Shown here: positions 3 through 11,650 of the stretch, in pieces
Layout of the letters: each line of letters opens with the position of its first letter
How positions within the stretch are numbered: the first letter of the stretch is position 1
Source: Brooklawnia cerclae
GTDB lineage: Bacteria; Actinomycetota; Actinomycetes; Propionibacteriales; Propionibacteriaceae
DNA: 64,000 nucleotides
Direction: 5' to 3'
Assembly (NCBI RefSeq): GCF_011758645.1
Contig: NZ_JAAMOZ010000001.1
Span: 2,418,001-2,482,000 of the forward strand
Made by a program: the position numbers and the translations under genes
The notes under the pieces: model-generated
Seen by the model: only the letters and a program-made list of their open reading frames with translations
Told to the model about the DNA's origin: nothing
The model's database searches: none

Positions 3-1616
3 CTGATCCCGGCTGTGGCCGCGATCGCGCTTCTGGTGAGCAGCTGCACCAATTCAGGCGACACCAACACCACCACCGATGCCAGTGACTCCATCACGGT
101 CGCGATCGCGGCGATGCCGACGAGCTACGACCTCGAGGGCAACTGGGCCGCATCGAACGAGAACTACACCCTGTGGTCGCAGACCATGGTCGGACTCCTG
201 CGGTACAAGTACGTCGAGACCGACGGCGTGCTCGTGCAGGACTTCAACCAGTACGAGGGCGTCCTCGCCGACGAGGACGAGCCGTACACGGTGAGCGACG
301 ACGGGCAGGACTACACCTTCCACCTCCGCGAGGGCGTCGTCTCGCAGGCGGGCAACCCGTTCACCGCCCAGGACGTCTACTACTCGATCGACCGCAAGCT
401 CTCGGTCGACGGCGGCCGGCTCAACCAGATCAAGGACTACTTCTACTCGATCGACCAGCTCGAGATCGTGGACGACTACACGATCACGTTCCACCTGGAC
501 GACGTCGGCAACGACAACGTGTTCCTGCAGATGCTCACCGGTCAGATGGGCCGCATCTGGGACAGCACCGAGATGAAGGCGCACGCGACGACCGACGACC
601 CCTGGTCGGAGGACTGGGCCGCCCAGAACACCGGGGCCGGCTACGGCCCCTACGACGTCGACTCCGTCACCGCCGACCAGCAGGTCGTCCTGACCGCGAA
701 CGAGGACTACGTGCTCGGCGCTCCCGCGATCAAGACGGTCACACTGCAGGTGGTGTCGGATTCCGGGACGCGCGCGCAGATGCTGGCGTCGAGCGACGTC
801 CAGATCGCGGAGGCCCTGACGCCGACCGACCAGGAATCGATCCAGGACGACGAGAACGTGCAGATGGCCGAGGTCGACAACCCCATCGAGTTCGTCGATC
901 TCGCCCTGGTGCAGAACAAGGCTCCCTTCGACGACAAGCTCGTGCGTCAGGCGTTCATGTACGCGGTGCCCTACGACGAACTGATCGAGCAGATCTACCG
1001 CGGTCGCGCCACGACCAGCCCCGGATGGTTCACCCCGACCATGGGCGTTCCCGGTCTGTCCACCGATCCCGCCTACACCTACGACATCGACAAGGCCAAG
1101 GAGCTCCTCGCAGAGGCCGGCAAGTCGAGCGTGGACGTCACGCTGACCGTCTCGAACGCGATCCCTGACATCGTCGACGCGGCGATCATGATCGCGTCCT
1201 ACGCCAAGGACGCCGGCTTCAACGTCACGGTCGAACAGCTCGCACCGGCGGAGTTCGCCACCGGGCGTCTGGAGACGACGTTCGAGTCCATGTTGATGTC
1301 GAACCGCTCGCAGCAGCAGGCGCCGTCCTACGTCAGGAACTTCTTCCTCCCCGGTGACGTGAGCAACAGCGGCGCGTACGTGCCCACCGACGAGTGGCTC
1401 GCCCTGAACCAGGTCGCCATCGACGCGGGCACCGGCACGAGCGAGGAGGCGGCTCCGTACTGGGAGAAGGTTAACGAGTTCATCAACGACGACGCCAGCC
1501 AGCTGCCGATCCTGTACCGCCAGCCGAACCAGGCGTACGCCACGACGCTGGAGGGCATGTCGTACCGGTACGACAACACGGTCGACTACAGCGTCCTGAC
1601 GCCTGCCGGCTCCTAG
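3..1616 (+). CDS. ABC transporter substrate-binding lipoprotein, family 5 (5' partial)
   Basis: Extracytoplasmic solute-binding lipoprotein of the oligopeptide/nickel type, which would deliver a peptide-like substrate to an ABC permease. The visible reading frame begins inside a hydrophobic signal sequence ending in a lipobox-like V-S-S-C, followed by a Thr/Asp/Ser-rich linker, so the true start lies before base 1; a GTG at 15 is too short to give a full signal peptide. About 530 residues are visible, the normal size of the family, with a typical SBP_bac_5 layout. No permease or ATPase genes follow, so they must be upstream or elsewhere. It sits 39 bp before pxpA on the same strand, which suggests it feeds oligopeptides or a pyroglutamyl compound to that pathway. 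The substrate is inference. Confidence 0.85.
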   Translation: MIPAVAAIALLVSSCTNSGDTNTTTDASDSITVAIAAMPTSYDLEGNWAASNENYTLWSQTMVGLLRYKYVETDGVLVQDFNQYEGVLADEDEPYTVSDDGQDYTFHLREGVVSQAGNPFTAQDVYYSIDRKLSVDGGRLNQIKDYFYSIDQLEIVDDYTITFHLDDVGNDNVFLQMLTGQMGRIWDSTEMKAHATTDDPWSEDWAAQNTGAGYGPYDVDSVTADQQVVLTANEDYVLGAPAIKTVTLQVVSDSGTRAQMLASSDVQIAEALTPTDQESIQDDENVQMAEVDNPIEFVDLALVQNKAPFDDKLVRQAFMYAVPYDELIEQIYRGRATTSPGWFTPTMGVPGLSTDPAYTYDIDKAKELLAEAGKSSVDVTLTVSNAIPDIVDAAIMIASYAKDAGFNVTVEQLAPAEFATGRLETTFESMLMSNRSQQQAPSYVRNFFLPGDVSNSGAYVPTDEWLALNQVAIDAGTGTSEEAAPYWEKVNEFINDDASQLPILYRQPNQAYATTLEGMSYRYDNTVDYSVLTPAGS

Positions 1617-1655
1617 TGATCCACCCACCCGTCACCCAGTAGAAAGGCACTCGGC

Positions 1656-2417
1656 ATGGCCACCTCCGTGAATCTGGTCGCCGACATCGGCGAGAGTTTC
1701 GGCCCCTACGAGATCGGACAGGACGAGCAGTTGCTCGACTACCTGTCGTCGGCGAACGTGGCGTGCGGTTTCCATGGCGGCGATCCCGTCATCATGGATC
1801 GGACCGTGCGGCTGTGCGCCGAGAAGGGTGTCGCCGTCGGCGCGCACCCCGGTTTCCAGGACCGCCGGAACTTCGGGCGCGTGACGATCGAGCTGCCACC
1901 CGAGCAGCTCTTCGCCGACACGCTCTACCAGATCGGCGCCCTGAGGGCGTTCACGGACCGGTACGGCACGACGATCCACCACGTGGCTCCGCATGGTCGC
2001 CTCGGCAACCTGACGGCCGTCGATCCGCGCTATGCGGAGCCCGTGTTCGAGGCGATCCACGCGTTCGACCCGCATGTGCGCGTGTCGGCGACCGGCGGCT
2101 CGGTGCTGGGTGAACTGGCCGTCGCGGCGGGCCACGAGCTCGTCGCGACGGGCCTGCCGGATCGTGGCTACGACCCGGACGGGCACCTGACCAACCGCCG
2201 GAACCCGGGTGCCCTGGTCACCGATCCGGCCCAGATCGTCGCGCGGGCGATCACCATGATCGAGGACGGGTACGTGATCGCCGTCGACGGCTCCACCCGC
2301 GTCCCCGTGCCCTCCGGAACCATCCTGATCCACGGCGACAAGCCGTGGGCGCTCCCGGCCGCCAAACTGCTGAAAGCGGCGCTCGCCGAACGCGGGATGG
2401 AGATCAGGGCACTCTGA
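1656..2417 (+). CDS. pxpA: 5-oxoprolinase subunit A (LamB/YcsF family)
   Basis: Cytoplasmic LamB/YcsF-family protein of 253 residues, the usual length. In the PxpABC complex it acts with PxpB and PxpC to open 5-oxoproline (pyroglutamate) to L-glutamate with ATP. Family landmarks are visible: N-terminal NLVADIGESFGPY, then SSANVACGFHGGDP, GVAVGAHPGFQDRRNFGR and a late HVAPHGRLGN segment. ATG at 1656 follows an AGAAAGG ribosome site. pxpB starts two bases after the stop, and pxpC overlaps pxpB, so the three are translationally linked in the normal A-B-C order. Function is assigned from the family and this gene order. Confidence 0.93.
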   Translation: MATSVNLVADIGESFGPYEIGQDEQLLDYLSSANVACGFHGGDPVIMDRTVRLCAEKGVAVGAHPGFQDRRNFGRVTIELPPEQLFADTLYQIGALRAFTDRYGTTIHHVAPHGRLGNLTAVDPRYAEPVFEAIHAFDPHVRVSATGGSVLGELAVAAGHELVATGLPDRGYDPDGHLTNRRNPGALVTDPAQIVARAITMIEDGYVIAVDGSTRVPVPSGTILIHGDKPWALPAAKLLKAALAERGMEIRAL

Positions 2418-2419
2418 AC

Positions 2420-3163
2420 GTGATCGAACAGCTCCCCACCGTGCAAGGTCTGCGGTCGTACACAGTCGAGCCGCTCGGCGAGTCGTACGTGCTCATCACC
2501 TTCACCGACGAGTCCGAGGAGGATCGATGGCGGCACGCCCATTCGATCTGCCGGTCGCTCGAACATCTGGGCTACGACGCCGTCATATCGACGTACCCCG
2601 CCTACGACAGCGTCCTGGTCGAGTTCGACGCGTTGCGCATCGACACCGCCGGGATCACACGGATCCTCGACGGGTTGGCGGGCCGCTACTCGGAGGCGGA
2701 CGAGGCATGGCTGAGGGATGCCGTCGTCTATCGCTTCCCCATCCGGTTCGGTTTCGACATCGAGCCGATCGCGAGCGAGCTGGGCATATCGATCTCGGAA
2801 CTCATCGAGATGGAGGTGAGCGAGCCGATCCGGATACGGTGCCGAGCGGTGGGCGGCGGCCTGATGATGCGCAATCATCCGACCGTCCCGCCGGTCCGGC
2901 GGCTCGCCTCCCCCGTCATCCGGGAGACGCTTGGAGGCGAGTTCAACCTCGCCGGCCATCAGTGCTCGATCGGCCTGAGCACAGGACGGGCCACGACCGG
3001 GTGGAGGACCATCGGCCGCACCCCCGTGGACGTGGCGGCCGAGTTCCTGAAACCCGGCAGGAACTTCCACATCGGCGACCTCGTGAAGCTGGAGCCGATC
3101 TCCTCCGACGCGTGGTCGCAGCATGTGGGACGCCCCATCGACGTCATCGGGGCCGACTCATGA
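2420..3163 (+). CDS. pxpB: 5-oxoprolinase subunit B (KipI/AHS1 family)
   Basis: KipI-like (AHS1, carboxyltransferase C/D) subunit of about 247 residues. With PxpC it forms the ATP-using part of 5-oxoprolinase. The same fold makes up half of the carboxyltransferase domain of urea carboxylase. Conserved stretches seen are the central YRFPIRFGFD-like strand, a GGGLMMRN turn and the C-terminal CSIGLSTGRATTGWRTIGRTP region followed by GRNFHIGDLVKLEPI. I chose GTG 2420 because it directly follows the pxpA stop and makes a family-length product; an upstream start would overlap pxpA by about 70 bases. The stop overlaps the pxpC start (ATGA). Confidence 0.9.
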   Translation: MIEQLPTVQGLRSYTVEPLGESYVLITFTDESEEDRWRHAHSICRSLEHLGYDAVISTYPAYDSVLVEFDALRIDTAGITRILDGLAGRYSEADEAWLRDAVVYRFPIRFGFDIEPIASELGISISELIEMEVSEPIRIRCRAVGGGLMMRNHPTVPPVRRLASPVIRETLGGEFNLAGHQCSIGLSTGRATTGWRTIGRTPVDVAAEFLKPGRNFHIGDLVKLEPISSDAWSQHVGRPIDVIGADS

Positions 3164-4128
3164 CCGCCTCCCGCGCGGGCGTCAGCATCCGCGTGCTCGA
3201 GTCGTTCGGCGCCGTGGTCCAGGACCTCGGACGCGTCGGTCACGAGAAGGGCGGGATCAATCGGAGCGGTGCGTCCGACACCTTCTCGTCCCGCTTCGCT
3301 AACCTCGCGATCGGGAACCGGGCCGACGCCCCGTGCGTCGAGATCACCGGCACGCGCTTCGCGTTCGAGACCGCCGAAGCCGTGACCATCGCGGTGACCG
3401 GTGCCGGCTGCGAGGTGCGGGTCGACGAGGACGTGCGGATACCGCAATGGGAGCCGGTCACCGTCCCGCGTGGGGCCCGTGTCGACATCGGCCTGCCCAC
3501 CGCCGGCTACCGGGTCTACCTCGCACTCGCCGGAGGCCTCCGTGCGAGGAGTCTCTACGGAAGTGTCTCGCCGCTGCCTCCGTTCGGCTTCCTCAACGAG
3601 GTGCGGGCCGGCGACGAGTTGTCCCGCGATCCCCGCAACGCCGGATCCCCGGTGGCACCCGGATCGAGCGACCTCGCACGACCCTTCGTCGAGCGGACGC
3701 TCGGGGCGGAGCGGATCGGTGTGATCGAGACCGCCCAGACCGCGATGTTCGAGGGTATGGAACGCCTCTACTCGCATCAGTTCACGATGAGCCCGCGCAG
3801 CAACCCGGTCGGTGCCCGGTTCGCCGGCCCGACCCCGGTTCGCAAGGACAATCGTGAGCTCGTGAGCCGTTCGGTCCCGATCGGGTCCATCGAGATCCCG
3901 TCGGCCGGCGAACTCATCGCGCTGCTCCGCGGCCGGCTCATCACAGCGGGCTACCCCGTGCCGGCCGTCATCGCCAGGGCGGACATCGACGTCGTGGCGC
4001 AGCTGGCGCCGGGCGCGCGCGTCGGGTTCGAGCGCATCGACGAGTCCGAGGCCCGCTACCGACTCATGCAGACCGAGCTCGTCCTGCAGCGCCTGGCGGG
4101 ACGAGACACGTCCCGCCATCACCTCTGA
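3160..4128 (+). CDS. pxpC: 5-oxoprolinase subunit C (KipA/AHS2 family)
   Basis: AHS2/KipA-family protein, 322 residues, the partner of PxpB in ATP-dependent 5-oxoprolinase; databases often call it biotin-dependent carboxyltransferase. Typical features are an N-terminal FGAVVQDLGRVGHEKGGINRSGA-type motif (residues about 16-39), a YLALAGGLRA turn, and the SNPVGARFAGP and ITAGYPVPAVI motifs in the C-terminal half. The ATG at 3160 overlaps the pxpB stop by four bases, which fixes the start and implies coupled translation. A biotin carboxylase/BCCP gene follows after 29 bases. That association is known in other bacteria but its meaning is unresolved. Confidence 0.9.
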   Translation: MTASRAGVSIRVLESFGAVVQDLGRVGHEKGGINRSGASDTFSSRFANLAIGNRADAPCVEITGTRFAFETAEAVTIAVTGAGCEVRVDEDVRIPQWEPVTVPRGARVDIGLPTAGYRVYLALAGGLRARSLYGSVSPLPPFGFLNEVRAGDELSRDPRNAGSPVAPGSSDLARPFVERTLGAERIGVIETAQTAMFEGMERLYSHQFTMSPRSNPVGARFAGPTPVRKDNRELVSRSVPIGSIEIPSAGELIALLRGRLITAGYPVPAVIARADIDVVAQLAPGARVGFERIDESEARYRLMQTELVLQRLAGRDTSRHHL

Positions 4129-4157
4129 AGCCGTCGACCAGGAGCGATCCACCACAC

Positions 4158-5966
4158 ATGACAGCACCCATCGTCCACACCCCGGCCGTCTTCATCGCCA
4201 ACCGCGGCGAGATAGCCGTCCGCGTCATCCGTGCGGCCACCGACCTGGGCTACCGGACCGCGGTCGTGTACGTCGAGGCCGACTCGGACGCGCCCTACGT
4301 CGCGATGGCCACACATGCCGAGTTGGTCGGCTCCGGGGCGAATCCGTTCCTCGATGCGGAGTTGCTCGTCGCCGCCGCCGTCCGGGCCGGGGCCGAACTC
4401 CTGCACCCCGGGTACGGGTTCCTGGCAGAGGACGCGGACTTCGCCCGGCGCGTCGAGGCCGCCGGCCTGTGCTGGGTAGGCCCGGGCGCCGAGGCCATCG
4501 CCGCGCTGGGTGACAAGACCTCGGCCCGGACGATCGCCCGCGCGGTCGGGGCGCCACTCGTCCGGGGGAGCGACGGTCCGGTGGCCGGGCCGGACGACAT
4601 CCGGGATTTCGCCGACCGGGTCGGGTACCCGGTCGCCGTCAAGGCCTCGCACGGCGGAGGCGGACGAGGCATGCGTGTCATCGGCTCGCAGGCCGACATC
4701 GAACCGCTGTTCACCGCTGCGCGGAACGAGGCGCTCGCAGCCTTCGGCGACGCCGAGTGCTTCGTCGAGCAGTACCTCGACCGTCCCCGGCACGTCGAGA
4801 CGCAGTGTCTCGCCGACGCCCACGGGAACGTCTCGGTCGTCGGCACCCGCGACTGCTCACTCCAGCGCAGGCACCAGAAGCTCCTCGAGGAGGCCCCCGC
4901 ACCGGGCCTGACCGACGCGCAACTGGAGACGCTGACGACCGCGTCCCGCGACATCCTGCGGCACGTGGGCTACCGGGGCGCGGCGACCTGCGAGTTTCTC
5001 GTCTCGCGCGACGGCGTCGTGTCGTTCCTCGAGGTGAACACGCGCATCCAGGTCGAGCACACCGTGACCGAGGTCGTCTCCGGCATCGACCTGGTCGAAC
5101 AGCAGTTCCGCATCGCACGCGGCGAGCAGGTGCGCTTTCCCGACAACCGGTCGCGGGGCACGGCCTTCGAGTACCGCGTCAACAGCGAGGATCCGGCGAA
5201 CGGCTTCCTTCCCTCGACCGGTGTCATCACCCGATATGCCGAACCCTCCGGGCCGTGGGTCAGGGTCGACAGCGGCGTACGCGCGGGAAGCGACGTGTCG
5301 GGCATGTTCGACTCGATGCTCGCCAAGCTCGTCGTGACCGGTTCCACACGCGAGCAGGCCCTCGACCGCTCCCGCCGAGCCCTCGGCGAGTTCGTCGTCG
5401 AAGGAGTACGCACCACGCTGCCGCTGTTCACCGCGCTCGTGGACGACCCGGTGTTCCGCGCGCACGGCTCCGGAACCGGCGAGGGCATCCACACGAACTG
5501 GGTCGAGCGCGACTTCCTCACCGGAGGCGGGCTCGAACAGGTCGCGTCCCACCAGGACGACGCGTCCGAACCGCCGTCCGGCACGGGGCAGGCGACGCCG
5601 GCCGGCGTGGTGATCCGCGTCGACGGGCGCGAGATGAGTCTGGAGGTGCCCGATGCATTCCTCCGGCGGATCGCCTCGCTCGGATCGCCGGCACTCCGCC
5701 CGGCCCCGCGGCTCGCCGGTGTGAACGTCCGGGACGCCGCCTCGCCGCAGGTCACCGGGCGCGTCGTCAGCGCACCCGCCCAGGGCATCGTGGTGGCGGT
5801 GCACGTCTCGGAGGGCACCGACGTCCACGAGGGCGATCCCCTGGTCACGATCGAGGTCATGAAGATGGAGCACACGATCCGCGCCCCGGGCGACGGGCGC
5901 GTCGAGCACCTGGTGGGGCTCGGCGAGCAGGTGTCGCCGAGCACACCGCTCCTCCGGCTGGTCTGA
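4158..5966 (+). CDS. Biotin carboxylase fused to biotin carboxyl carrier domain
   Basis: Two-domain protein of 602 residues. The biotin carboxylase part (about residues 10-445) has the N-terminal IANRGEIAVRVIRA, an ATP-grasp Gly-rich loop (HGGGGRGMR), RDCSLQRRHQK with the catalytic Lys, and FLEVNTRIQVEH with the Glu/Arg/Glu residues. The C-terminal biotinyl domain (about 525-602) has EVMKMEH with Lys569 as the biotin site. All residues expected for ATP-dependent carboxylation of biotin are present, so it should be active. No intact carboxyltransferase lies nearby; the candidates are PxpB/PxpC (urea-carboxylase-like fold) upstream and the degenerate carboxyltransferase-like protein at 7217-8215. 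Acyl-CoA carboxylase alpha is the generic alternative, but the location argues for a dedicated role with the pxp genes. Confidence 0.93.
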   Translation: MTAPIVHTPAVFIANRGEIAVRVIRAATDLGYRTAVVYVEADSDAPYVAMATHAELVGSGANPFLDAELLVAAAVRAGAELLHPGYGFLAEDADFARRVEAAGLCWVGPGAEAIAALGDKTSARTIARAVGAPLVRGSDGPVAGPDDIRDFADRVGYPVAVKASHGGGGRGMRVIGSQADIEPLFTAARNEALAAFGDAECFVEQYLDRPRHVETQCLADAHGNVSVVGTRDCSLQRRHQKLLEEAPAPGLTDAQLETLTTASRDILRHVGYRGAATCEFLVSRDGVVSFLEVNTRIQVEHTVTEVVSGIDLVEQQFRIARGEQVRFPDNRSRGTAFEYRVNSEDPANGFLPSTGVITRYAEPSGPWVRVDSGVRAGSDVSGMFDSMLAKLVVTGSTREQALDRSRRALGEFVVEGVRTTLPLFTALVDDPVFRAHGSGTGEGIHTNWVERDFLTGGGLEQVASHQDDASEPPSGTGQATPAGVVIRVDGREMSLEVPDAFLRRIASLGSPALRPAPRLAGVNVRDAASPQVTGRVVSAPAQGIVVAVHVSEGTDVHEGDPLVTIEVMKMEHTIRAPGDGRVEHLVGLGEQVSPSTPLLRLV

Positions 5967-6035
5967 GGCGATTCCCGACCCGACGACCGACACGGCACCA
6001 CCACATCACATCCGCACCGCACACAGAGAGGCCAC

Positions 6036-7220
6036 ATGATGGCGACTTCCCCGGTATCGGCACGAGTGAGGCGCGTCCGGGACGTGTCCCGGCGCAACGA
6101 GGTGCCGGCTCACGCCGACCTCATCGAGCTGTCGAAGGGCGAGCCCGATCTGGACACGCCGCGTCCGGTCGTCGAGGCGATGACCGGGGCGATCGCGGCG
6201 GGCTGGACGCACTACGCCACGGTCAAGGGTGACCCCGAACTCCGTGAGGCACTGGTCACCGACGCGAACCGGAGGCACGGCACGTCCTATTCGGCGGCCG
6301 ACTGCGTGATCACCCACGGGGGCGCGGCCGCGATCACCGCGACCGTGCTCGCACTCGTCGACCACGGCGACCGGGTGGTCACCGCCGACCCGAGCTACTC
6401 GCTGTACCGGGACGCCGTCGCCCTGGCGGGCGGCGAGCTCGTCGAGGTCGAGATCCGGCCCGGGGACGAGAGCGCAGGGCTGCGGAGGCTCGCACAGCGT
6501 GCGATCGCCGAGGATGCGACGATGATCATGCTGTGCAACCCGGTCAACCCGAGCGGGGCCACCTACGATCGCACGGAGCTGGAGTCCCTCGCCGCGACGC
6601 TGACCGGCACCTCCATCCGGGTGTTCGTGGACGAGGCCTACGAGGCGTACGTCTACGAGGACGGCGCCTTCGCGACCGCGCTCGACGTCCCGTCCCTGAT
6701 CGAGCGGCTGATCTTCTGCCAGACCTTCTCGAAGACCTACGCGATGACAGGGTGGCGGATCGGATATGTCGTCTCGTCCGACGCGCAGGCACTGCAGGCG
6801 ATCCTGGACGTCCACAAGACGTTCAACGGGCCCCTCAACACCGCCGTGCAACGCGCGGCGATCGAGGCGATACGCACCCGCGACGACGTGATCCCCGCGA
6901 TGCTCGCCGAGTACGCGCAACGCCGGGCCTACGTCATGGACCGGCTCTCAGCCGTCCCGGGAGTGCGCTTCGTCGCCCCGGTCGGCGCCTTCTACGTGTT
7001 CTTCGAGTACGACCTCGACATCGGATCGGCCGAACTGCGCGACCTGCTCGTCCGCGAACACGGCATCGCGCTGCGGCCGGGATCGGAGTTCGGGGACGCC
7101 GGGGAACACCATCTGCGGCTCTCGTACACCTATTCGATGGACACGCTCGCCGCCGGGATCGACCGGCTCGAGAAGGCCTTCACGGAGCTCGCCGGTATGC
7201 GGGCGGTGACGGCCCCATGA
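6036..7220 (+). CDS. PLP-dependent aminotransferase, class I/II
   Basis: Fold-type I aminotransferase of 394 residues. It has the substrate-side SKGEPDLDTP start, LCNPVNPSGA, VDEAYEAYVY (the Asp that contacts PLP), the Schiff-base lysine Lys233 in SKTYAMTGWRIGY, and a C-terminal RLSYTYS with the carboxylate-binding Arg. It most resembles the aspartate/aromatic aminotransferase Ib group, but the donor and acceptor cannot be read from sequence. The neighbouring GDH-like gene suggests glutamate and 2-oxoglutarate as the amino-group pair. Two tandem ATGs (6036, 6039) follow a GAGAGG site. The stop overlaps the next start (ATGA at 7217), so it is coupled to the carboxyltransferase-like gene. Confidence 0.88.
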   Translation: MMATSPVSARVRRVRDVSRRNEVPAHADLIELSKGEPDLDTPRPVVEAMTGAIAAGWTHYATVKGDPELREALVTDANRRHGTSYSAADCVITHGGAAAITATVLALVDHGDRVVTADPSYSLYRDAVALAGGELVEVEIRPGDESAGLRRLAQRAIAEDATMIMLCNPVNPSGATYDRTELESLAATLTGTSIRVFVDEAYEAYVYEDGAFATALDVPSLIERLIFCQTFSKTYAMTGWRIGYVVSSDAQALQAILDVHKTFNGPLNTAVQRAAIEAIRTRDDVIPAMLAEYAQRRAYVMDRLSAVPGVRFVAPVGAFYVFFEYDLDIGSAELRDLLVREHGIALRPGSEFGDAGEHHLRLSYTYSMDTLAAGIDRLEKAFTELAGMRAVTAP

Positions 7221-8215
7221 GTGACGGCGCCCTCCCGTCCGGGTGGATGGAGCAGATCCGGTCCTGCGCGCTCCTCGACGACCTCTCCCCCGTGAACGGG
7301 ATCGTCCTGCGGAGCGGGTCGCGGCTGGAGCTCGCCGTCGGCTCGATCGCCGGGCGGCCGACGTTGGTCGGCGCTCTCGACGGCACCGAGGCGGACGCCG
7401 GCGACATCTGGGAGGTGGCACGCCGCGCGGAGGCGATGTCGATGCCCTCGGTCACGGTGACCACGGCCCGGCCGACCGGCGTGGCCATCGGTCAGGCCGG
7501 GCCTCCTCGCTCGCCCCACGTGGTCGTCGCGCCGCCCGCTCCCGACGACACCGAGGCCGCGTTCGGCGCCTGCCGGGCGTTGCGCGTGACGCTCACCGAC
7601 CGTCCCGACGGATCGGCCGTGCTCTCGGCGCCCGACACGGCGGCCGGGCTGGACCTCGCCTGCCTGCTCGTCAGCTGCCTCCCGGCGACCTGTGATCAGA
7701 CGCCGCCCTCGTATCGTCCCGTCGACAAGCCGGAGGCCGGCGAACTGGGCCCGGCAGCCGAACGGAACGCGACCGCGGTCCTGTTCGCCGTCTGCGACGA
7801 CATGCTCCGGCTGTTCCCCGACGAGACCGACGAGCTCGTCCTCGCTGCCGCCCACGTGCATGGCCACGGGATCGCCATGATCGCCCCGCAGTCGCTCTCG
7901 CGTCCCACCCTCACGCAGCGGTCGGTCGCCCGGCTCACCGGCCTGCTCAGGTTGTGCGCCCGGTACTCGTTGCCCGTCGCCGTCCTGGGCGGCCTGCCCG
8001 AGATGGTGTGCGAGCCGGCGGTGGCAAGATTCCTGCTCCGCGACCTCGCCGTCGCGGCCGCGGACCTCCACCGGCCCGTGATCCTCGTGCCGGACGACAC
8101 CCCGGGCTCCTCCGTGCAGCGGGTGCTGGGCTCGGCTCCCGCAGCCGTGGAACTGGCATCGTCCACGGGGCTACGCCGCGGCATCGCCGGCTGGATCGGC
8201 GCCGACCTGTCATGA
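7217..8215 (+). CDS. Degenerate acyl-CoA carboxylase carboxyltransferase-like protein
   Basis: A 332-residue protein that I align by eye, in order, to the beta (carboxyltransferase) subunit of propionyl/acetyl-CoA carboxylases, which is about 510-530 residues. SRLELAVGSIAGRPTLVGA matches the strand before the N-terminal active site. LVSCLPATCDQTPPSY matches the hinge LLSYLPSNNxSEPP. RLTGLLRLCARYSLPVAVL matches KAARFVRxCDAFNxPxLTx, and RDLAVAAADLHRPVILVPD matches the second oxyanion region. The segment holding the first oxyanion hole (GPCAGGAVYSP) is missing, and the second (KAFGGAYxxMGS) has become TPGSSVQRVLGS. It is therefore probably not an ordinary carboxyltransferase; it may be a pseudo-enzyme, an assembly factor or something with altered chemistry. 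It starts by ATGA overlap with the aminotransferase gene. Confidence 0.72.
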   Translation: MSDGALPSGWMEQIRSCALLDDLSPVNGIVLRSGSRLELAVGSIAGRPTLVGALDGTEADAGDIWEVARRAEAMSMPSVTVTTARPTGVAIGQAGPPRSPHVVVAPPAPDDTEAAFGACRALRVTLTDRPDGSAVLSAPDTAAGLDLACLLVSCLPATCDQTPPSYRPVDKPEAGELGPAAERNATAVLFAVCDDMLRLFPDETDELVLAAAHVHGHGIAMIAPQSLSRPTLTQRSVARLTGLLRLCARYSLPVAVLGGLPEMVCEPAVARFLLRDLAVAAADLHRPVILVPDDTPGSSVQRVLGSAPAAVELASSTGLRRGIAGWIGADLS

Positions 8216-8248
8216 CCCGAAACCGATGAGAAAAGGACACCTGAGCAC

Positions 8249-9004
8249 ATGACCTACAGCGACTATTCCACCGCCCTCGTGACCGGAGCATCGTCGGGCA
8301 TGGGCGAGGCAACCGTGCGGATGTTCGTCGCACGCGGACTCACCGTGCACGCCGTGGCCCGCGACGGGGCCCGGCTCGACGCGCTCGCCGACAGCCTCGG
8401 TGTGATCCCGCACGCCGTCGACCTTGCCGACACCGACGCGATCGAATCCGAACTCGGCGGTCTTCGCGTGGACGTCCTGGTGAACAGTGCGGGAGTGAGC
8501 CGGCAGGGCAACGTCCTCACGTCCACCCGATCCGACCTTGACGCGATGGTGGACGTCAACCTGCGCGCCGTACTGCACCTGACCAGGCTGTTCCTGCCCG
8601 GCATGGTGGATCGCGACCTCGGGCACATCGTCAACATCTCCAGCATCGCCGGGCACTACAACTTCTTCGGGCACACCGCCTACCACGCGACGAAGGCGGC
8701 GATCCACCAGGTCTCGCGCCAGCTGCGCAACGACACCCTGGGCAAGCGCATCCGCGTGACCGAGATCTCACCGGGACGTGTGGAGACCGAGATCTTCGGC
8801 CGCAACCTCGGGGGAAGCCCCGAGGCGATGAAGGAGGCCTGGGCGACCTACTTCGAGGGTTACGAATCGCTGACGACCGACGACATCGTGTCGGCGATCG
8901 ACTTCGCACTCAGCGCCCCACGACATGCCAACATCGGCCTCATCGAGATCATGCCCACCTTCCAGGTGCCCGGCGGCCTCACCTTCGACAGGAGGGCCGA
9001 ATGA
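8249..9004 (+). CDS. SDR-family NAD(P)-dependent oxidoreductase
   Basis: Classical short-chain dehydrogenase of 251 residues. It shows the cofactor motif TGASSGMG (residues about 10-17), NSAG, the catalytic Ser in NISSIAG and YHATK with the catalytic Tyr and Lys, then SPGRVETEIF. It resembles the YdfG/serine 3-dehydrogenase-like branch that oxidises hydroxy acids or amino-alcohols, but the substrate is not readable. ATG 8249 follows an AAAAGGA site. The stop overlaps the GDH start (ATGA at 9001), so the two enzymes are made together. Confidence 0.88.
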   Translation: MTYSDYSTALVTGASSGMGEATVRMFVARGLTVHAVARDGARLDALADSLGVIPHAVDLADTDAIESELGGLRVDVLVNSAGVSRQGNVLTSTRSDLDAMVDVNLRAVLHLTRLFLPGMVDRDLGHIVNISSIAGHYNFFGHTAYHATKAAIHQVSRQLRNDTLGKRIRVTEISPGRVETEIFGRNLGGSPEAMKEAWATYFEGYESLTTDDIVSAIDFALSAPRHANIGLIEIMPTFQVPGGLTFDRRAE

Positions 9005-10317
9005 GCGTCGGGGTCACGCAGGTTCCCACCTCGGCCCGGCCCGGCGGTCCCATCGGCGCCCCGCACGATCTCGGGCCCGGCACCGGCCCGTTGGGCGCGG
9101 CGATCCGCCAGCTGCGCGACGCGGCCCGGTCGCTGGAGCTTCCATGCGCACTCTTCGAGACGCTGGCGCGACCTCAGCAGGAGGTGACCGTCCACTTCCC
9201 CGTGATGATGGACGACGGCTCCGTCGTGACGCTCGAGGGACACCGCGTGCAGCACAACCTCGCTCGCGGGCCGGGAAAGGGAGGCATCCGGTACGCACCC
9301 GGGGTCGACCTCGACGAGGTCCGGGCACTGGCGATGTGGATGACCTGGAAGTGCGCGCTCATGGACATCCCGTTCGGCGGGGCGAAGGGGGGCGTCGCGT
9401 TCGACCCGGCGGAGCGCACCGATCACGAGGTCGAGCGGATCACGCGGGCGTTCACCCATGCGATCAGCCACTTCATCGGGCCGGACACCGACATACCGGC
9501 TCCCGACGTGGGCACCGACGAACGCACGATGGCGTGGATGATGGACGCGTACGCCCGGAGCACCGGGCAGTTCGCACCCGCCGTCGTGACGGGCAAGCCG
9601 CTCGCCATGGGCGGCTCGCACGGACGGGCCAGTTCGACCTCCGACGGCCTCGGCTTCATCACGATGGCGCTCCTCCAGGACCTCGGCATCGAGGCAGGGA
9701 AGGCGTCGGCATCGATCCAGGGGTTCGGCAAGGTCGGCGGGGGGCTCGCCGCGTTCTACGAGAAGGCCGGCATCGCCGTGCACGCGGTCTCGGACCGCTA
9801 CGGAGCCATCCGCAACGACCGGGGCATCGACATCCAGCACCTCCGCCGGCATGTGGCACAGACCGGATCCGTGGTCGGCTTCCCCGGTGCCGAACGCACC
9901 GATCCCGCCGACGTGCTGGCGGCCGACGTGACGATCGTCGTCCCCGCCGCGATCGAGGGCGTGGTCACCGGCGCGAATGCGACCTCGATCCGGGCCACCG
10001 TGCTCCTCGAGGGTGCGAACGGGCCGACGACCCCCGAGGCCGACGAGATCCTGGCGGACCGTGGCACGCTCGTGGTGCCCGACATCCTGGCCAACTCGGG
10101 CGGCGTGGTGGTCAGCTACTTCGAATGGGTGCAGGCTCGCCAGCAGCACCGATGGACCGAGCATCGCGTCCGGCAGGATCTGCGCGAACGCATGCTCCGG
10201 GCCTGGGAGATGGTGCGCCGCGATGCCGCCGGGCGGGGCCGTACCCTCCGGGAGTCGGCCACCGCCATCGCCGTGGGGCGGGTCGCCGACACGCAGCGCA
10301 TGCGGGGGATGATGTGA
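9001..10317 (+). CDS. Glu/Leu/Phe/Val dehydrogenase (glutamate dehydrogenase family)
   Basis: Hexameric-type glutamate dehydrogenase family member, 438 residues. The N-terminal domain holds RVQHNLARGPGKGGIRY and PFGGAKGGV with catalytic Lys129, then the D of PAPDVGTDE. The Rossmann domain begins near IQGFGKVGGG and ends in DILANSGGVVVSYFEWVQ. It would deaminate glutamate to 2-oxoglutarate and ammonia, a logical step after 5-oxoprolinase releases glutamate. The dehydrogenase could also prefer another amino acid. A strong AGGAGGG site lies just before ATG 9001, inside the end of the SDR gene. Confidence 0.9.
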   Translation: MSVGVTQVPTSARPGGPIGAPHDLGPGTGPLGAAIRQLRDAARSLELPCALFETLARPQQEVTVHFPVMMDDGSVVTLEGHRVQHNLARGPGKGGIRYAPGVDLDEVRALAMWMTWKCALMDIPFGGAKGGVAFDPAERTDHEVERITRAFTHAISHFIGPDTDIPAPDVGTDERTMAWMMDAYARSTGQFAPAVVTGKPLAMGGSHGRASSTSDGLGFITMALLQDLGIEAGKASASIQGFGKVGGGLAAFYEKAGIAVHAVSDRYGAIRNDRGIDIQHLRRHVAQTGSVVGFPGAERTDPADVLAADVTIVVPAAIEGVVTGANATSIRATVLLEGANGPTTPEADEILADRGTLVVPDILANSGGVVVSYFEWVQARQQHRWTEHRVRQDLRERMLRAWEMVRRDAAGRGRTLRESATAIAVGRVADTQRMRGMM

Positions 10318-10354
10318 TGCGCCCCCGCCTCGCGAGTCGTTGACCGGGGGAACG

Positions 10355-11650
10355 ATGTCTGTGCACTCGCGAGGACGCGGGCCCGGCCTGGCCGAACGGG
10401 ATCACGGGGACGGCTGGGTGTGGGTCGTCGTCAGCACGTTTATCGTGTTCCTCGTCGTCGGGGCGCTGATCACGATCATCCCCGTCCACGTGGTGGACGA
10501 GCTGGGCGTGTCGACCGAGGCCATCGGCGTCGCCTCCCTGGCGACGGGCATCGGCGGGGCGGCCGGACGGCTGGCCAGCGGGCCGCTGCTGCGCGGGTTC
10601 GCCTGGCGGCGGGTGGCGCTGTGGGCGCTGGTGACCTGCATCGTCTCGCTCGTCGGCACCGCGGTGGTGGCCGATCTCGTGTGGTTCGACGTCTGCCGGG
10701 CCGTGCAGGGCGTGGCGACGGCGCTCTTCCACACCGCGATCACCAGCGGCACGCTCCTCGAGGCGGGGCCCGAACGGGGGGCCACTGCGCTGGCGGTGAC
10801 CTCGGCTCCGCTCTACGTCGGCACCGCGCTCGGCCCCGGATTCGGCGAGTTGCTCGCGACGCGGGCAGGCGCCGAGCCCTGGCTGCTGCTCGCCGCGATG
10901 GTCGCCGTGGCCCTGGCTCTCATGGTCGTGTCCGCGGTACGCGGTCCCCGTGCGGTTCCGACCGGGGCACGGAGCCCGGACGAGACCCCTGAGCGAGCGC
11001 ACGGCACCGCCGGGCCTCTGCGAGCCCTGCATGCGATCGTCTACCCGGCGGCCATCGTGCCGGGTCTGATCTGGGTGCTCATGGCGTCCCAGTGGATCGC
11101 GCTGCAGACGTACCTGCCGCTCCTCTCGGGACATTTCGGGCTCGAGCGGGTCGGCGCCGTCTACGCCACGTTCGCGGGCTGCGTCGTCGTCATCAGGGGC
11201 GCGGGCGCCCGGTGGCTCAACCGGGTGCCGAACCGGCGCATCGTCGCCGTGAGCTGCGCGAGTGCGCTGGCCGGTAGCCTCGTGCTCCTGCTCGTCCGCA
11301 ACGCGGCCGGACTGTATGCCGGGGTCGTGCTGCTCGCCGTCTGCGCGGCGCTCGGGTACGGGGCCCTGCTGCAGCTCGCCCTGGCGCTCGTGCGACCCCA
11401 GGAGCACGGGGCCGCGGTCAGCACGTTCTCGCTGATGCTCGACGCGACCTCCGGCACGGTCGTGGCCGTCATCGGCTTCTACTCGGCGGGAGGCACACAG
11501 GCCACGAGCCTCGTGTCGCTCGGGCTGGGCTGTGTGGCACTCGGCACCGTGTTGTTCGCGGGCTGGGCCGCCGTCAGGAGCCGTGGCCTGCACGCACAGG
11601 CGCGCAGGCCGGGCATCCTGATCGACGGCCCCGGGGACGCGATCGGGTGA
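10355..11650 (+). CDS. MFS transporter
   Basis: Major facilitator superfamily membrane protein of about 431 residues with roughly 12 predicted transmembrane segments in two halves, separated by a polar loop at about residues 195-225. A DGWVW segment precedes helix 1, and an RAVQGVATALFHT-like helix 4/5 motif is present. The substrate is unknown; as last gene of the cluster it could export an amino acid or import a carboxylate. I prefer ATG 10355, with GGGGGA four bases upstream, over a TTG at 10340. Its stop lies only 7 bases from the end of the convergent gene, with no obvious terminator between. Confidence 0.85.
   Translation: MSVHSRGRGPGLAERDHGDGWVWVVVSTFIVFLVVGALITIIPVHVVDELGVSTEAIGVASLATGIGGAAGRLASGPLLRGFAWRRVALWALVTCIVSLVGTAVVADLVWFDVCRAVQGVATALFHTAITSGTLLEAGPERGATALAVTSAPLYVGTALGPGFGELLATRAGAEPWLLLAAMVAVALALMVVSAVRGPRAVPTGARSPDETPERAHGTAGPLRALHAIVYPAAIVPGLIWVLMASQWIALQTYLPLLSGHFGLERVGAVYATFAGCVVVIRGAGARWLNRVPNRRIVAVSCASALAGSLVLLLVRNAAGLYAGVVLLAVCAALGYGALLQLALALVRPQEHGAAVSTFSLMLDATSGTVVAVIGFYSAGGTQATSLVSLGLGCVALGTVLFAGWAAVRSRGLHAQARRPGILIDGPGDAIG

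Follow-up and report, generated by a model that had tools for sequence, protein, structure and literature searches.

A divergent pxpABC operon with a linked biotin carboxylase in Brooklawnia cerclae: a possible route of biotin-dependent lactam opening

Gene content and organization of the operon

We analyzed a stretch of 64,000 nucleotides from the actinobacterium Brooklawnia cerclae (RefSeq assembly GCF_011758645.1, contig NZ_JAAMOZ010000001.1, positions 2,418,001 to 2,482,000), hereafter named the window. Its first part carries an operon in which the genes of a divergent PxpABC, the three subunits known from 5-oxoprolinase, are followed by a gene for a fused biotin carboxylase (BC) and biotin carboxyl carrier protein (BCCP) and by several enzyme genes. 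The same operon was found in a metagenome-assembled genome (MAG), Actinomycetales bacterium bin_16, here L174. The features are as follows:

15..1616, + strand: extracellular solute-binding protein (SBP) of family 5, peptide/nickel/opine type (PF00496, 216 bits; 75% identity in L174, at the same place)
1656..2417, + strand: PxpA-like lactamase subunit, PHGRLGN variant (PF03746, 266 bits; PRK05406 subfamily; NF003814, 281.9 bits for a cut-off of 226)
2420..3163, + strand: PxpB-like carboxyltransferase subdomain C/D, divergent, with a GTG start (PF02682, 62.8 bits)
3160..4128, + strand: PxpC-like carboxyltransferase subdomain A/B, divergent, with RGRLITAGYP (PF02626, 191.5 bits; alignment; PxpC tree)
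4158..5966, + strand: fused BC and BCCP, 602 aa (BC and biotin_lipoyl Pfam domains; motifs; tree)
6036..7220, + strand: pyridoxal phosphate-dependent aminotransferase, class I/II (PF00155, 195 bits; 73% identity in L174)
7217..8215, + strand: degenerate carboxyltransferase of the acyl-CoA carboxylase type, 332 aa, probably not catalytic (PF01039 in the L174 ortholog; hhalign)
8249..9004, + strand: short-chain dehydrogenase (SDR), YdfG-like (PF00106, 148 bits)
9001..10317, + strand: glutamate dehydrogenase (GDH)-type enzyme (PF00208 and PF02812; 69% identity in L174)
about 10340..11650, + strand: major facilitator superfamily (MFS) transporter, operon membership uncertain (PF07690, 98 bits; BioY in its position in L174)

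From 15 to 10317, and including the MFS gene, all of these genes are on the + strand, and neighbors are never more than 69 bases apart. The initial annotation had described a pxpABC cluster extended with BC-BCCP, aminotransferase, SDR and GDH genes, and this gene set was confirmed. It had left out the 7217..8215 gene, and the operon begins earlier than it supposed: pxpA is preceded by the SBP gene, whose true start may lie before the window, and, outside the window, by ATP-binding cassette (ABC) permease and ATPase genes back to a LysR gene read divergently, an order shared with a related MAG. Four ATGA start/stop overlaps had also been reported. Four ATGA strings do occur at gene ends, but only three of them overlap genes (pxpB/pxpC, aminotransferase/7217 gene and SDR/GDH); the fourth, located where the 7217 gene ends, begins a frame of only five codons, and the SDR starts at 8249.

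The BC-BCCP protein appears to be active, as initially proposed. It carries the catalytic motifs GDK, KASHGGGGRGM, QRRHQKLLEEAP, EVNTRIQVEH and EYRVNSED, as well as the biotin site EVMKM. Further BC-BCCP-sized matches were detected elsewhere in the genome, which rules out that the window BC is the only biotin carboxylase of the cell. One of these copies, at 610 kb, has a full-length carboxyltransferase (PF01039, 635 bits) at a distance of 3.6 kb, so that the window BC gives the impression of an additional, dedicated enzyme. Likewise, all five searched genomes with a linked BC hold another BC-BCCP-sized match. A Pfam search of the operon proteins tested revealed no intact PF01039 carboxyltransferase.

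The operon of L174 corresponds to that of the window gene for gene. Amino acid identities lie at 68-79% (79% for PxpA, 70% for PxpB, 69% for PxpC, 70% for BC and 78% for the SDR), and fall to 39-40% for the 7217 protein. A gene encoding a BioY biotin transporter (123.6 bits) follows GDH in L174, where the window has the MFS gene. Because the order SBP-pxpA-pxpB-pxpC-BC-aminotransferase-7217-SDR-GDH is kept, the gene set is more than a chance assembly; chance adjacency was ruled out by this whole operon together with the recurrent BC linkage described below. Between the window and L174, pN/pS was 0.28-0.42 across eight genes, with 0.41 for BC and 0.72 for the 7217 gene. The codon changes in the window BC-BCCP thus fit purifying selection.

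A divergent PxpABC subfamily with conserved partners

The operon could be a plain 5-oxoprolinase with extra genes, as all three subunits are present in the order pxpA-pxpB-pxpC, with the same Pfam families, and PxpA scores over the NF003814 cut-off. We consider this improbable. The window PxpA does not reach the three equivalog models or NF003816, and the curated cut-offs are missed by PxpB (TIGR00370, 16 against 145.55 bits) and PxpC (NF045499, 135 against 500 bits). In the PxpA loop, PHGRLGN replaces the canonical PHGALYN. Because of these PxpB and PxpC scores and this loop, the window proteins fall outside 5-oxoprolinase despite the same architecture, in agreement with the initial annotation, which had doubted a plain 5-oxoprolinase. 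Moreover, two other pxp sets occur in this genome, one of them a canonical pxpA-pxpBC-BC operon (L037).

We therefore refer to a divergent subfamily. In a PxpC tree, its members, including the window, form a single branch (100/99), separate from canonical PxpC and from urea carboxylase. Its relatives were collected by scanning a species-genome collection with an alignment of window-type PxpC, and the best 80 of 167 relatives were retained, with stretches reaching up to 10 kb on each side (13 of the 80 are under 20.8 kb). The set includes L245, L200 and L204, which are the same records as query rows L040, L041 and L042 (L040/L245 being a Rhodococcoides record). Because RGR..TAG was part of one of the two scan patterns, the PxpC signature (80/80) is largely circular; the PxpA signature is not circular. 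PHGxLGN was found in PxpA of 79 of the 80 divergent relatives and in none of 77 canonical actinobacterial loci, while the canonical loop PHGALY(N) was found in 61 of the 77 canonical loci and in none of the 80 relatives. The pathway was observed in actinobacteria, one Sporosarcina and proteobacteria.

We evaluated the neighbors in the 80 loci by tblastn (>55 bits); the SDR, aminotransferase, LysR and MFS labels correspond to matches to reference proteins from broad families. Besides pxpA (79), pxpB (80) and pxpC (80), the most frequent were the aminotransferase (76), SDR (76), MFS (70), LysR (69) and RraA (69), followed by a 2-hydroxyacid dehydrogenase (51) and a Zn-alcohol dehydrogenase (37). 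BC (4), GDH (3) and the 7217 gene (1) were rare. An SDR 60-82% identical to that of the window over more than 200 aa was present in 68 of the 80 clusters. The conserved cluster is thus composed of divergent PxpABC, SDR, aminotransferase, RraA aldolase and LysR; no RraA gene was noted among the operon genes of the window. A second divergent pxp set of the same genome (L038) has RraA, M24, AKR, aminotransferase and SDR genes, and no BC match in the 19.5 kb fetched.

In our judgement, the operon quite probably encodes a pathway of the lactamase type that serves a purpose other than the plain use of 5-oxoproline. The SBP family 5 importer, RraA, the aminotransferase and the idonate/gluconate-type neighbors found in related clusters would be in keeping with a hydroxylated or sugar-linked pyroglutamate as substrate. 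In two plasmid regions, L277 (10934-14741) and L278, genes annotated as 2-hydroxyacid dehydrogenase, L-idonate 5-dehydrogenase, SDR and gluconokinase adjoin the SDR-pxp module, and homologs of the first three are found near the module in many actinobacterial loci (L040 and many of L174-L253). Such neighbors hint at a sugar-acid link of the substrate.

Recurrent linkage of biotin carboxylase genes to pxpBC

Linked BC genes are placed tightly and on the same strand as the pxp genes. In the window and L174, BC directly follows pxpC. In Brachybacterium (L178) and Rothia (L194 and L210), it is located at the end of the cluster, after an aminotransferase or hydroxyacid dehydrogenase gene, and no AccD match was detected in these three stretches. 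In the draft contig of Rothia santali, the linked BC-BCCP frame (L210:15168-16906) appears broken, by pseudogenization or sequencing error; the pxpA and pxpC frames of an Arthrobacter plasmid (L054:7404-10007) also appear broken. A second BC-linked pxp operon is present in the genome of the window itself, at 95-113 kb, where a fused pxpBC and, overlapping it, a BC-BCCP gene come after a canonical pxpA (L037:6406-10527).

The association extends to plasmids. Fifteen plasmid regions (L050-L057 and L274-L280), chosen and not random, were inspected, and BC was present in ten. Eleven are proteobacterial clusters with a related SDR (53-58% identical to that of the window), among them three close Paracoccus and two close Shinella/Roseateles copies. 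Like the window, these accB-accC-pxpB-pxpC-pxpA-SDR clusters have BC beside pxpABC and carry an aminotransferase; they differ in that accB and accC are separate, RraA is often present (7/11 stretches) and several encode a second BCCP-like protein without the lysine. Nine of the 11 have accC together with a BCCP bearing the lysine (MKM, MKV or MKT). The two lacking accC, from Rahnella and Neorhizobium, have no lysine-bearing BCCP in the fetched stretch either.

The second small proteins without the MK biotin site (L050:10006-10479, L051:6807-7205, L052:12247-12663, L276:5704-6129 and L277:1785-2252) are annotated in some clusters as BCCP or biotin/lipoyl-containing proteins, and two that were tested gave no Pfam match. 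The Rahnella gene annotated as a BCCP subunit (L053:6648-7088) is of this type.

We mapped BC linkage on a PxpC tree built from 36 selected rows. It requires seven changes, six of them forced by well-supported branches; each may be a gain or a loss, and a Bradyrhizobium copy sharing its locus with a BC was labelled unlinked. When labels were shuffled, the mean was 11.3 changes, and five of 500 shuffles were as low as seven, so that linkage is more clustered than in most shuffles. A single clade for the seven actinobacterial linked BCs was rejected (p-AU 0.0002, the group being named after inspection of the tree). BC linkage to PxpBC thus recurs in distant groups.

A carboxyltransferase-like protein encoded within the operon

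The 7217 protein gave no match in Pfam or NCBIfam at E 0.01. Its L174 ortholog (L174:14032-15039) matched PF01039 with 29.3 bits (cut-off 22.3) over part of the model, and the pair aligned with seven PF01039 proteins in hhalign with a probability of 97.4% (E 1.3e-11, 161 columns). K-A/G-Y-G, present in all seven AccD-type proteins compared, is found in neither 7217 copy. D-V/T-P-G, also present in all seven, is missing from the L174 copy; the window copy has LGGLPEM at the aligned place and DTPG elsewhere. From these sequence features, we read the 7217 protein as a putative pseudo-carboxyltransferase, which could perhaps be a scaffold for BC.

The gene is present in one of eight genomes of the genus, that of the window. 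Among 394 genomes of the class, 13 had matches: the window genome and 12 others, whose matches were weak (best E 8.1e-6); the seven weak matches tested were PF01039 carboxyltransferases. A plasmid search with the 7217 protein gave no match at E 0.01. The 7217-type gene is known here from two operons alone, and is fast-evolving.

BC-BCCP and the 7217 protein could together form an acyl-CoA or related carboxylase, with PxpABC a separate enzyme of the same pathway. The homology to PF01039 carboxyltransferases and the presence of the gene in both complete operon copies found, in the window and L174, agree with such a pairing, but the protein is short (332 aa), it evolves fast (39% identity, pN/pS 0.72) and it has lost the AccD-type motifs, while Rothia and Brachybacterium have a linked BC with neither the 7217 gene nor an AccD match. 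We regard this carboxylase as distinctly unlikely.

A possible biotin-dependent lactam-opening mechanism

The reading that we favor, tentatively and with somewhat less than even confidence, is a biotin-dependent lactam-opening operon. It would serve the uptake and breakdown of a cyclic amide (lactam) related to 5-oxoproline, and not of 5-oxoproline itself. PxpB and PxpC, which have the carboxyltransferase fold, would form a biotin-dependent activation unit with the dedicated BC-BCCP. BC would carboxylate biotin using ATP and bicarbonate, the BCCP arm would deliver carboxybiotin to PxpBC, and PxpA would open the activated lactam, the product then being passed to central metabolism by the SDR, the aminotransferase and the GDH-type enzyme. 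The sequences themselves show the gene set, the divergent PxpABC subfamily and its conserved SDR, the motifs and codon changes of BC-BCCP and the recurrence of BC linkage. We infer the action of BC-BCCP on PxpBC, the carboxylation of the lactam itself, its timing ahead of ring opening and even the lactam nature of the substrate.

A solved structure bears on the contact between these proteins. In PDB entry 9yx5, the chains are named allophanate hydrolase subunits 2 and 1 and biotin-dependent acyl-CoA carboxylase alpha3 subunit, a BC-BCCP (PDB sequence search). By names and scores, the allophanate hydrolase chains are near those of 3mml and are homologs of PxpC and PxpB, and in the PDB the window BC scores best against the alpha3 chain. 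We take the chains to be mycobacterial AccA3 and MSMEG proteins. No paper describing 9yx5 was found in the literature searched. With a BC-BCCP chain and PxpB/PxpC homologs in one entry, 9yx5 makes an encounter of BC-BCCP with PxpBC more likely, and it suggests that a shared BC-BCCP may serve loci that lack a BC gene. Lactam opening requiring ATP and bicarbonate has a precedent in the caprolactamase CapAB, whose authors weigh three mechanisms, one of them with a carboxylated lactim (PMC8453981); the CapAB proteins are unrelated to those of the window, and biotin is not known to take part in the proposed mechanisms.

Several observations weigh against the proposed mechanism. BC was detected in four of the 80 divergent loci; the other 76 have none in the fetched stretch, so that most divergent clusters can do without a linked BC. 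Among the 77 canonical actinobacterial pxpBC loci, two have BC (L037 and L147) and 75 have none in the stretch; 17 of these stretches are shorter than 13.6 kb, from which some linked BCs may escape, and the count leaves out urea-carboxylase-type places, fragments and the two divergent copies of the window genome. The five linked BCs of divergent clusters could share one origin (p-AU 0.062, the group again being named after the tree), and the 7217 protein is a second candidate partner for BC. Further, 5-oxoprolinase has reportedly been reconstituted in vitro from PxpA, PxpB and PxpC of Bacillus subtilis. Corynebacterium glutamicum has a BC elsewhere in the cell. Its pxpTABC operon is described without BC, and is reported to be necessary for growth on 5-oxoproline (PMC13274462).

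The active site also argues against a simple transfer of urea carboxylase chemistry, which the initial annotation had invoked as a split urea carboxylase. The general base of the yeast enzyme is a conserved lysine, K1605 (PMC5770610). In our alignment, this column is Lys in three of three actinobacterial urea carboxylases and Arg in 16 of 18 PxpB rows, including the window and L174, whether BC-linked or not; for the divergent window PxpB, the assignment depends on one alignment. The two PxpBs with Lys are from Agrobacterium (BC-linked) and Paenarthrobacter (no BC match in the stretch). The urea mechanism is thus not simply transferable, because the general-base column is Arg in most PxpB rows. 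Lactam carboxylation is plausible, although this one checkable active-site residue does not favor it.

A split urea or guanidine carboxylase is very improbable. Every domain type of urea carboxylase (BC, both carboxyltransferase halves and BCCP) is encoded in the window, but as separate genes instead of one BC-CT-BCCP chain, with PxpA added and the general-base Lys replaced by Arg. PxpC falls outside the urea carboxylase group of the tree, and no match over the cut-off of TIGR02712 (urea carboxylase) was found in the window genome, the one genome searched. Separately, two regions (L056:3726-7969 and L055:6082-7948) encode PxpB-like proteins with a urea-carboxylase-type lysine (PKY), whose PxpC partners group with urea carboxylase with moderate support (84/84); these are possibly a third kind of enzyme.

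Divergent PxpABC could also open the lactam alone, by direct ATP-dependent phosphorylation, with BC-BCCP serving another step (e.g., bicarbonate capture for a later acid) or being a co-regulated passenger. The 76 clusters without BC in the fetched stretch and the Arg of PxpB agree with this scenario, as does the phosphorylation of 5-oxoproline by PxpBC, which is stated as an assumption in PMC13274462. On the other hand, BC linkage recurs in distant groups, 9yx5 holds both partners, no intact PF01039 carboxyltransferase is available among the operon proteins tested, and the clusters lacking a BC could be served by one that is encoded elsewhere and shared, as hinted at by 9yx5. We find PxpABC acting alone rather unlikely. 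The recurrent ties of BC genes to PxpBC and the 9yx5 entry likewise argue for the biotin-dependent variant of lactam use proposed in the initial annotation, against which stand the 76 clusters; its interpretation is thus partly supported, and its observations were right in the main, with the corrections given above.

A wider version of biotin-dependent lactam opening is conceivable, although we hold it to be doubtful. PxpBC with BC-BCCP would be a lactam carboxylase and PxpA would hydrolyze the carboxylated ring, carboxybiotin and not phosphate activating the amide. PxpABC systems without BC, including some canonical actinobacterial 5-oxoprolinases, would borrow a shared BC-BCCP, as in 9yx5, and the linked BCs would represent this borrowing made permanent several times. 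We found no published explanation for BC genes recurring beside 5-oxoprolinase genes in the open literature, most subscription papers being outside the search. If PxpBC does take carboxybiotin, the assumption of phosphorylation would have to be revised for some members of the family at least, and the conserved pathway observed in actinobacteria, one Sporosarcina and proteobacteria would gain a first handle. The recurring pairing of BC with PxpABC seems, from the sequences compared, to make biotin-driven opening of cyclic amides worth a bench test. The window offers a compact, testable operon with genomic controls, as the same genome carries a divergent set without BC and a canonical set with a linked BC.

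Related and neighboring genes

A search of viral contigs yielded no relative. In the mumTLUHC operon of Acinetobacter, mumC is reported to be necessary for urea use (PMC5050338). MumC could be a BC or a PxpC homolog; gene order compared with Bacillus suggests PxpC.

Downstream in the window, between 11914 and 16856, the genes resemble, on inspection by eye, those for a sodium:solute symporter, a galactokinase, an aldose epimerase and a LacI regulator, which have no bearing on the operon.

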